Origin: Candidatus Syntrophocurvum alkaliphilum
GTDB taxonomy: Bacteria > Bacillota > Syntrophomonadia > Syntrophomonadales > Syntrophomonadaceae
Direction of reading: 5' to 3'
Assembly: GCF_009734445.1 (NCBI RefSeq)
Contig: NZ_CP046457.1
Span: 1,978,001 to 2,042,000 of the forward strand
DNA length: 64,000 nt
Shown here: in pieces, positions 37,927-47,035 of the stretch
How the letters are laid out: every line of letters starts with the position of its first letter
Position numbering within the stretch: position 1 is the first letter of the stretch
Translations under genes and position numbers: made by a program
Notes under the pieces: model-generated
Told to the model about the DNA's origin: nothing
Databases searched by the model: none
The model's input: the letters and a program-made list of their open reading frames with translations, nothing else

Positions 37927-37990
37927 GGAAGCACGGGGACGGTTCTTTTGCTTCCTAAAAAGGAAGCAAAAGAACCGTCCCCGTGCTTCC
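37927..37990. repeat. nested palindrome, GGGGACGGTT family (GGAAGCA flank)
   Basis: Two perfect 29-base arms (37927-37955 and 37962-37990) around a 6-base loop. Each arm is GGAAGCA, core CGGGGACGGTTCTTT, TGCTTCC. An extra flank copy GGAAGCAC starts at 37913. It lies between the convergent pabA and flavodoxin genes. Confidence 0.92.
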
Positions 37991-39580: not shown

Positions 39581-39644
39581 GCGAAACAGGGGACGGTTCT
39601 TTGTTCTATTTGTAAATAGAACAAAGAACCGTCCCCTGTTTCGC
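39581..39644. repeat. nested palindrome, GGGGACGGTT family (GCGAAACA flank)
   Basis: Two perfect 31-base arms (39581-39611 and 39614-39644) around GT. The arm is GCGAAACA, core GGGGACGGTTCTTT, then GTTCTATTT, so inner and outer flanks differ here. An extra CCCTGTTTCGC copy follows at 39646-39656. It lies in the divergent gap between tetR and the DUF2294 gene. Confidence 0.9.
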
Positions 39645-39809
39645 CCCCTGTTTCGCCAATTGGTGTATTTTTATTTTTTATGTTTCATATAAAACATTTC
39701 TATTGTTAGTGTTTTCTCAAAGCATTGACAATTCGGCTTTTTAGAAGTAAATTAAATATATTAAATTATATAAACAATAAATTAATAAACTAAATATTAT
39801 ATGACGATG

Positions 39810-39903
39810 GCGGATTATGGGAGTCCTGCGGGAAGCCCTACGGAAACCAATGTTTTGACAGTCATAACACTTTATTTATGCTGCAAAATATTGGCTTTTT
39901 TGT
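39810..39903 (+). promoter_or_regulatory. structured leader with terminator before DUF2294 gene (motif copy 1)
   Basis: Begins GGCGGATTA (39809-39817), then a small GGG-AAG-CCC hairpin flanked by TCC and GGA, then CCAATGTTTTG (39847-39857) pairing with CAAAATATTGG (39884-39894), with an inner CAG/CTG and CATAA/TTATG helix, then TTTTTT. The DUF2294 gene starts 48 bp later. A second copy with the same end segments lies before the alcohol dehydrogenase gene. It does not match any riboswitch class I know. Confidence 0.5.
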
Positions 39904-39951
39904 TTAAATATAGGTATAGTTTTAGTTTAATTTTAAGCAGGGGGGATTTAA

Positions 39952-40365
39952 ATGTCGTCATTATCAGATCAAAATCCTAAAAATATAGTTAATATGAACA
40001 TGAAACTAGATGATCGCCAACGTAGGAAATTGCAACATGAACTCAAGATTTACATGGAACAATATTTTAAGCAAAGACTTGGGAAAGGCGTTGACTATAC
40101 AAAAGTTATAATATGGGACGATATGCTTATAATACGGGGAGAAAGATTTTTAACCGAACCGGAAATATATATTGTTGAAACCTCGGCAGGACGTGAAGTA
40201 GTACGAGCAGCACGAATGAAGGTTGCACAACAACATGCAATCGAAAATGTACCCTATTTTGAAGAAAAGCTAAATGCTAAAGTAGTACATCAATCCTACG
40301 ATGTTGAACCTGAAAACGATTTTTGGATACATGTTATGGTATTTGATCGAATACTTACTGAATAA
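39952..40365 (+). CDS. DUF2294 (MpsC-like) protein
   Basis: A 137-residue cytoplasmic protein of the DUF2294 family, some members of which are annotated as part of a Na+-translocating membrane-potential system (MpsC). Seen: LQHELKIYMEQYFKQRLGKG, VIIWDDMLIIRGERFLTEPE and AGREVVRAARMKV. RBS GGGGGGA precedes ATG 39952. The function in this organism is unclear. It follows leader motif copy 1. Confidence 0.8.
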   Translation: MSSLSDQNPKNIVNMNMKLDDRQRRKLQHELKIYMEQYFKQRLGKGVDYTKVIIWDDMLIIRGERFLTEPEIYIVETSAGREVVRAARMKVAQQHAIENVPYFEEKLNAKVVHQSYDVEPENDFWIHVMVFDRILTE

Positions 40366-40398
40366 ATAAAGATTAAAGTTAAAAATTAAATAAATTTA

Positions 40399-40484
40399 GG
40401 TGGATTAAGAAGAAACCCCTATGGGTGGCTTCGAGAAATACCAATATTTTTACAAACTTATGTATGAATATTGGTCTTTTTTTT
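40399..40484 (+). promoter_or_regulatory. structured leader with terminator before alcohol dehydrogenase (motif copy 2)
   Basis: Begins GGTGGATTA (40399-40407). ACCC and GGGT form a small hairpin around CTAT. ACCAATATT (40440-40448) pairs with AATATTGGT (40467-40475) with an inner TACA/TGTA, then T9. Shares 8 of 9 bases with copy 1 at the start and 11 of 13 in the CCAAT(A/G)TTTTnACA segment. It may also be just the DUF2294 gene terminator. Confidence 0.45.
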
Positions 40485-40591
40485 TATAAAGAAGTAATGC
40501 AGATTACGAAAAGAGGTGGTATGTGGGAGAAATAGTTGTTGCTTAGTGAAAAATATATTTTATTTTAAGAAAAATTAGGAGGTAGTATATA

Positions 40592-41647
40592 ATGGCAGAT
40601 ACTATGAAAGCTCTCGTTTACCGTGGACCGGAAAAAATAGCTCTTGAGGACGTACCAAAACCTACTTTAAAAGAAGCTGATGACGCGATAGTGAAAGTAA
40701 CCACATCAACTATCTGTGGAACCGATATTCATATTCAGCATGGTGGTGTACCTACAGTACAACCTGGTACAATTCTTGGACATGAATTTGTTGGCGAAGT
40801 AGTTGAAATTGGTTCAGCAGTTAATAAAGTTAAAGTAGGAGACAAGGTAGCTGTCTCTTGTATAACACAGTGTGGTGAGTGCTTCTATTGTGTGCGCGGA
40901 ATTTACTCTCAGTGTGTTAGCGGCAGTTGGATTTTCGGCCACTTAATAGATGGGTGTCAAGCAGAATATGTTAGAGTTCCTCATGCCAATATGGGATGCC
41001 ACCATATTCCAGAAGGATTAACAGAAGAAGATGTTCTCTATGTGGGCGATATTGTATCAACTGGTTATTATGGCGCAGAACAAGCAAATATTGAACCTGG
41101 TGATACCATTGCTGTTATTGGGGCTGGCCCAGTAGGACTATGTGCAATGGCAACTGCTAGATTATGGGGTCCTTCTAAAATAGTAGCTGTTGATACCATA
41201 GATGAACGCTTGCAAGAAGCTATAGATAATGGAGTTGCTGATGTGGGACTAAATCCTATGAAAGATGATGTAGTAGCAATTTTGAAAGACATGACAGATG
41301 GTCGTGGTGCAGATGCGACTATTGAAGCAGTAGGAATCAAGCCAACTTTCGATTTAGCTATTGAAGCTGTAAGACCAAGTGGTACGGTTTCTCTTTTAGG
41401 TGTATTTGAAGAACCTCAAGAAATTGCCATGGAAAGCTTATGGATAAAGAACATCACCATAACTATGGGTCTTGTTAATTCTAACCGTATACCAGAGTTA
41501 ATACGCTTAATACAATCAGGAAAGCTTGACTTAAATTTCTTAACTACTCATAGAGCTCCATTAAACGATATAATAAAAGGTTATGACATCTTTGGAAACA
41601 AGAAGGAAAACGTTCTAAAGTGGGTTGTAACACCATTTGAAAGATAA
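40592..41647 (+). CDS. zinc-dependent alcohol dehydrogenase (MDR family)
   Basis: A 351-residue NAD(P)-dependent dehydrogenase of the medium-chain family. It has the catalytic zinc ligands Cys in TSTICGTDIH and the GHE motif, the structural zinc motif C-x2-C-x2-C-x7-C (CGECFYCVRGIYSQC), and nucleotide motif GAGPVG. Substrate is not readable. Similar clostridial enzymes use secondary alcohols. RBS GGAGG precedes ATG 40592. It is preceded by leader motif copy 2. Confidence 0.93.
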   Translation: MADTMKALVYRGPEKIALEDVPKPTLKEADDAIVKVTTSTICGTDIHIQHGGVPTVQPGTILGHEFVGEVVEIGSAVNKVKVGDKVAVSCITQCGECFYCVRGIYSQCVSGSWIFGHLIDGCQAEYVRVPHANMGCHHIPEGLTEEDVLYVGDIVSTGYYGAEQANIEPGDTIAVIGAGPVGLCAMATARLWGPSKIVAVDTIDERLQEAIDNGVADVGLNPMKDDVVAILKDMTDGRGADATIEAVGIKPTFDLAIEAVRPSGTVSLLGVFEEPQEIAMESLWIKNITITMGLVNSNRIPELIRLIQSGKLDLNFLTTHRAPLNDIIKGYDIFGNKKENVLKWVVTPFER

Positions 41648-41810: not shown

Positions 41811-41934
41811 GGGTGGTAAGCACAGGGTAGCAAGTACGGGGATAAGGATAAGGAAGCACGGGGGCGGTTCTTTTGCTTCCTAAGTTAGGAAGCAAAAGAA
41901 CCGCCCCCGTGCTTCCCCGGCCCTGTGCTCACCC
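41811..41934. repeat. doubly nested GGGGACGGTT-family palindrome
   Basis: The inner palindrome has two perfect 29-base arms (41852-41880, 41888-41916) with GGAAGCA flanks and core CGGGGGCGGTTC, which carries an A-to-G change shared by both arms. Around it is an outer inverted repeat GGGTGGTAAGCACAGGG (41811-41827) and CCCTGTGCTCACCC (41921-41934). This looks like one palindrome inserted in or grown from another. It lies between the convergent dehydrogenase and the small membrane gene. Confidence 0.85.
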
Positions 41935-46971: not shown

Positions 46972-47035
46972 GGAAGCACGGGGACGGTTCTTTTGCTTCC
47001 TTTTTAGGAAGCAAAAGAACCGTCCCCGTGCTTCC
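46972..47035. repeat. nested palindrome, GGGGACGGTT family (GGAAGCA flank)
   Basis: Two perfect 29-base arms (46972-47000 and 47007-47035) around TTTTTA. Arm sequence is identical to the element at 37927-37990. A partial GGAAGCGC copy starts at 46958. It lies between the RHH gene and the patatin gene. Confidence 0.92.

Follow-up and report, generated by a model that had tools for sequence, protein, structure and literature searches.

Two leader sequences in the genome of Candidatus Syntrophocurvum alkaliphilum are, as judged from sequence and predicted folding, copies of one conserved and previously undescribed family of regulatory RNAs. In this family, an antiterminator hairpin is predicted to compete with an intrinsic terminator. 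With moderate confidence, we propose that the MpsC (DUF2294) protein encoded between the leaders is a putative RNA-binding antiterminator of its own gene and of the adjacent dehydrogenase gene.

Two leaders flank an MpsC gene

The window, that is, the whole stretch of 64,000 nucleotides that was analysed (G000:C1:1978001-2042000), comes from a single-contig genome of 2.36 Mb. It contains two leaders of about 90 nt each: leader 1 (39803-39902) lies upstream of the MpsC/DUF2294 gene, and leader 2 (40393-40485) lies between the MpsC gene and a Zn-dehydrogenase gene. The features of the locus are as follows.

39725-39753, + strand: candidate sigma-70-type promoter (TTGACA-17-TAAATT) 5' of leader 1; weak, consensus only
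39803-39851, + strand: leader 1 antiterminator; model match of 48.5 bits, and unforced minimum free energy (MFE) fold of the truncated leader
Leader 1 P1: 5' strand UGG 39808-39810, 3' strand CCA 39847-39849; junction GGAUUAU 39812-39818
Leader 1 P2: GGG 39819-39821 with CCC 39836-39838; 2x2 loop AG 39822-39823 and AG 39834-39835
Leader 1 P3: UCC 39824-39826 with GGA 39831-39833; loop UGCG
39846-39902, + strand: leader 1 intrinsic terminator, from folding (-19.2 kcal/mol); its 5' arm begins within the P1 3' strand; T-run 39896-39901
39952-40365, + strand: MpsC/DUF2294 protein (PF10057), 137 aa, profile match E 1.6e-25; proposed RNA-binding antiterminator
40393-40445, + strand: leader 2 antiterminator; model match of 69.5 bits, and unforced MFE fold of the truncated leader
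Leader 2 P1: GGU 40399-40401 with ACC 40440-40442; junction GGAUUAA 40402-40408
Leader 2 P2: GAAG 40409-40412 with CUUC 40429-40432; 2x2 loop AA 40413-40414 and GG 40427-40428
Leader 2 P3: ACC 40415-40417 with GGU 40424-40426, extended by C40418-G40423
40440-40485, + strand: leader 2 intrinsic terminator, from sequence and folding; 5' arm ACCAAUAUU, identical with the P1 3' strand; 3' arm AAUAUUGGU at 40467-40475; T-run 40477-40485
40592-41647, + strand: Zn-dependent medium-chain dehydrogenase of 351 aa, with 5yln and 4cpd as its nearest relatives of solved structure

The sequences named in the original prediction are present where it placed them: GGCGGATTA at 39809-39817 and CCAATGTTTTGACA at 39847 in leader 1, GGTGGATTA at 40399-40407 and CCAATATTTTTACA at 40441 in leader 2, with T-runs that end near 39901 and near 40485. 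Its spacings also hold, with 48 bp between leader 1 and the DUF2294 reading frame and about 108 bp between leader 2 and the dehydrogenase. Matches to sigma-70-type promoters numbered 9 compared to 5.2 expected from shuffles, which alone is not significant.

A repeated intergenic palindrome, GGGGACGGTTCTTT(T)G.../...AAAGAACCGTCCCC, occurs in the window at 39589-39636, 37959-37982 and 46980-47003, with a variant near 41860-41925. It has six overlapping matches in the window compared to none in shuffles and resembles a dispersed hairpin repeat.

The leaders belong to a conserved RNA family

Compared to dinucleotide shuffles, the fold stability of the leaders reaches z-scores of -3.5 (2/200) for leader 1 and -4.7 (0/200) for leader 2. 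A covariance model (R1) was built from an alignment of 18 sequences. The only strong model matches in the 2.36 Mb genome are the two leaders (E 4e-15 and 3e-9), and the next match has an E-value of 0.45. Orthologues of MpsC in Syntrophomonas, other Syntrophomonadaceae, Desulfoscipio and a Bacillus-labelled MAG have the same elements before the gene, after it or on both sides. The R1 collection comprises 105 matches (101 distinct) over the Syntrophomonadales and about seven further families, and these are not independent, as some loci represent one genome in two collections. Among 61 relatives, 21 had copies; the numbers were 28 of 63 in the class, 20 of 399 in the phylum, from about ten families, and 8 of 20 in a second class. 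The phylum and second-class counts include two matches that we rejected as false, namely those in G139 (27.7 bits, without a terminator) and G446 (30 bits, apparently inside a coding sequence).

The claim that the leaders represent a conserved RNA is thus borne out by about 100 further copies that the covariance search found in other genomes. They had also been described as fitting no known riboswitch class, which agrees with Rfam 15: neither gathering nor relaxed thresholds gave a match overlapping the leader hairpin, and the weak matches at relaxed E-values lay on terminator hairpins or elsewhere. A literature search for DUF2294, or for riboswitches together with Syntrophomonas, found nothing relevant.

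Every copy has the hairpin architecture P1-loop-P2-2x2 loop-P3, which shows covariation. The terminator comes after the consensus sequence, which reads uUGGU-GGauUAa-gGAG-AA-ACC-(4-6 nt)-GGU-GG-CUCc-(5-8 nt A-rich)-ACCAAU. P2 and P3 covary through swaps between A-U, G-C and G-U pairs. In alignment A3, 64 cells are double-changed compared to 22.4 +/- 4.0 after shuffling, and 88.3% of the cells are paired compared to 48-53% after slides by one column; A3 was fitted to the model and hence leans to the structure, and an earlier, unfitted MAFFT alignment gives the same picture. The inner hairpins of the two leaders, first taken to be different, turn out to be the same helices with compensatory changes (GGG-AG-UCC/GGA-AG-CCC in one, GAAG-AA-ACCC/GGGU-GG-CUUC in the other). 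Unpaired nucleotides are conserved in the junction (GG.UUA) and in the 2x2 loop, where 57 of 101 rows have AA/GG; the apical loops are variable, mostly of 4-6 bases. P1 has a (nearly) invariant GG-CC and partly kept flanking pairs. As it comprises only 3-5 bp, it plausibly needs help to form.

Antiterminator and terminator share a strand

In 102 of 105 distinct copies, the 3' strand of P1 (ACCAAU) doubles as the 5' arm of an intrinsic terminator, compared to 63 of 311 random places that pass the same, permissive overlap test. The three failures are one terminator that can be recognised by eye in a shifted register, one decayed relic and one false match. When truncated before the terminator (up to CCAAU), the leaders fold unforced into P1-P2-P3, with -10.8 kcal/mol for leader 1 and -16.3 kcal/mol for leader 2, whereas both fold as terminators at full length, which supports the terminators with T-runs described originally. 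Thus, the two structures form a mutually exclusive antiterminator/terminator pair. An alternative pairing, whose absence would have counted against the original prediction, exists in both leaders; P1, which provides it in competition with the terminator, had been missed.

Judged by these sequences, antitermination is well supported as the class of mechanism. The geometry suggests that stabilisation of the hairpin should turn the genes on. In addition, leader 2 may well terminate the MpsC transcript, as suggested originally.

That the leaders are ordinary intrinsic terminators, similar by chance and preceded by a hairpin without a regulatory role, is very improbable given the covariation of P2 and P3 and the conserved loops upstream of the terminator in many families. 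Furthermore, the terminator of leader 1 sits 5' of the gene that is to be shut off, and up to three tandem copies precede the dehydrogenase gene (L094; two copies in G308 and G394, three in G024). Ordinary terminators would nonetheless fit leader 2, which could terminate MpsC transcripts, and those copies that have no obvious downstream target (G004, G025).

The motif accompanies one MpsC subfamily

Among 107 placed copies, 89 directly flank MpsC: 44 separate MpsC from a dehydrogenase gene, 37 lie immediately 5' of MpsC, and 8 separate it from another gene. MpsC and the dehydrogenase, which had been considered unrelated, are in practice a recurrent two-gene unit. Other downstream genes encode an SDR dehydrogenase (e.g. 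L083, L096, L113), an ABM monooxygenase (L081, L091) or a cytochrome b561 operon (L010). The copies apart from MpsC (SDR in G003; ABM in G035, G021 and G440) are found in MpsC-bearing genomes.

An extra motif copy, divergent from the MpsC operon, is found in Syntrophomonas (S. wolfei among them) and in a relative. These copies have a distinct P2/P3, GGAGAACC...GAGAGGCUCC, and lack an evident target gene in the near downstream region.

L112:3195-3249, L004:2028-2082, L005:1956-2010 and L086:2341-2395, - strand: divergent motif copies

At two further loci (L033:1779, L085:4742), MpsC is followed by a motif copy and then by a convergent gene on the opposite strand, so that the switch has no visible target.

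We compared the occurrence of the motif to that of the MpsC subfamily, defined in the phylum sample by at least 48% identity to the window MpsC (19 of 399 genomes). The motif is present in all 19 genomes if G148 is included, whose MpsC lies between two diverged copies that were detected with filters off (E 4e-4 and 1.5e-3). It is present in none of the 25 phylum genomes that contain only a distant DUF2294 protein (22-32% identity). In the class sample of 63 genomes, all 26 genomes with MpsC carry the motif. Conversely, the motif without MpsC was found in G040, G043 and G045, in addition to the false match in G139. In G040 (98% complete), a convincing motif of 51 bits precedes a dehydrogenase gene, and MpsC was undetected. 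G043 and G045 belong to genus g26, in which G039 has the order motif-MpsC-motif-ADH; at the same site, G043 and G045 have lost both genes and kept degenerate motifs, and G041 has kept an MpsC fragment with a stop. Fisher p-values for the co-occurrence are tiny but overstate independence, as the genomes are related. The motif and the MpsC subfamily co-occur almost perfectly, in a near-obligate partnership.

MpsC as a putative antiterminator

The window MpsC matches PF10057 with 89.8 bits (cut-off 23). This is its sole domain match, without a PRD, CAT or ANTAR domain. The protein is slightly acidic rather than basic overall (pI 6.1). Its confident AlphaFold2 model (pLDDT 87.7) had no match in the PDB below E 0.001, so that no known RNA-binding fold lends support, and a sequence search of the PDB gave nothing usable. 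Receiver-domain fusions of DUF2294 occur in other genomes, two of them confirmed with Pfam (G011, G030) and three recognised by sequence (G393, G334, G100), mostly beside a histidine-kinase gene.

In G011 and G030 (L137, L138), the receiver-DUF2294 regulator has the histidine kinase upstream and is located directly 5' of nuoABC. The gap of about 280 nt before nuoA contains a strong hairpin or terminator-like element, a possible second RNA target family. In these two sequences the terminator-like hairpins are strong, an alternative pairing was not established and R1 did not match. At L164, L168 and L170, a distant stand-alone DUF2294 gene without the motif is found near formate dehydrogenase, fdhD and/or moaA.

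We propose the following mechanism. By default, the ACCAAU strand would enter the terminator, and transcription would stop before MpsC at leader 1 and again before the dehydrogenase at leader 2. A factor that stabilises P1-P2-P3 would hold ACCAAU in P1 and block the terminator, such that both genes are read. This factor is most likely MpsC, which would switch on its own gene and the dehydrogenase gene in the manner of BglG in the bgl operon. MpsC would probably sense a metabolite or a redox state that is related to the dehydrogenase. We infer MpsC to be the switch because of its partnership with the motif, the bgl-like gene order and the receiver fusions, which resemble the architecture of ANTAR regulators, and because the known antiterminator domains CAT_RBD and ANTAR do not explain the motif. 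More tentatively, DUF2294 may generally be an unrecognised RNA-binding antitermination domain that is autoregulatory here, serves as response-regulator output elsewhere and has its own RNA targets.

The main rival is a small-molecule riboswitch, which we consider rather unlikely but a serious alternative to the MpsC model. Here, P1-P2-P3 would be an aptamer, P1 would be stabilised by a metabolite connected with the dehydrogenase, SDR and MpsC, and MpsC would be a co-regulated enzyme or transport gene. The conserved unpaired nucleotides in the junction and the 2x2 loop, the weak P1 overlapping the terminator and the several oxidoreductase targets are all in line with a riboswitch, as is G040 with its motif and undetected MpsC. 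Co-occurrence would also be expected if MpsC and the dehydrogenase were merely the regulated pathway. However, the element is small and simple, no wider set of pathway genes is associated with it, and across about ten families the motif is almost never present in a genome without this MpsC subfamily. This co-occurrence, the bgl-like gene order and the presence of DUF2294 as the output domain of response regulators lead us to favour a protein-dependent antiterminator. Of the original interpretation, a conserved regulatory RNA outside the known classes, with terminators, stands, whereas its riboswitch-like nature was not established.

It is improbable that another trans-acting protein binds the motif, with MpsC as a regulon member or co-factor. 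Such a protein would be compatible with the indirect link between MpsC and the RNA and with the ANTAR proteins found in 9 of 15 motif genomes tested. Yet ANTAR is absent from the window genome and from G020, G034, G017, G440 and G039, CAT_RBD is absent from all 15 motif genomes, and none of 22 six-base loops is an A1/G4 hexaloop.

Comparison with known systems

The MpsC protein encoded between the leaders belongs to the same Pfam family (PF10057) as MpsC of the Staphylococcus aureus mpsABC operon, whereas its partners in the window are a dehydrogenase and RNA switches. MpsAB of S. aureus functions without mpsC, which is not collocated with mpsAB outside staphylococci (PMC6689103). Given that MpsAB can do without it, the Pfam name is no evidence for a role in transport.

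Terminating riboswitches in Rfam resemble the motif in that P1 of an aptamer-like hairpin is in competition with a terminator (ON geometry). In contrast to these, the motif has no match in Rfam 15 and is tied to one protein subfamily. If the RNA binds a metabolite instead of MpsC, it would be a new riboswitch class in syntrophic bacteria.

In the Escherichia coli bgl operon, the order is t1-bglG-t2-bglF. The window and many other loci share this order of terminator, regulator, terminator and target, with MpsC as the presumed regulator. BglG, LicT and SacY regulate their own gene and an adjacent target, as proposed for MpsC, but the bgl-type targets are PTS genes whereas the motif targets are dehydrogenases. 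The consensus of the motif differs from that of the RAT. Like the motif, the RAT is an antiterminator hairpin that overlaps the 5' arm of the terminator; both hairpins have two internal loops, and in the BglG/LicT type, as in the motif, the 3' part overlaps the terminator stem (PMC3369936). We rejected membership in the BglG/RAT family, as MpsC lacks CAT_RBD (PF03123), which was found in none of the 15 motif genomes by a search whose positive control worked.

The ANTAR antiterminators EutV, NasR and AmiR also act on leader terminators with a competing hairpin. They have the receiver-domain architecture of response regulators (PMC3369936); DUF2294, the proposed binding domain, is likewise fused to receivers, mostly beside a kinase gene. 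Membership in this class was rejected as well, with no ANTAR domain (PF03861) in MpsC or the window genome and no dual A1/G4 hexaloop hairpins. If MpsC binds the motif RNA, an output could be predicted for receiver-DUF2294 response regulators, and a widespread and misleadingly named family would form a further class of leader-RNA antiterminators beside CAT and ANTAR.
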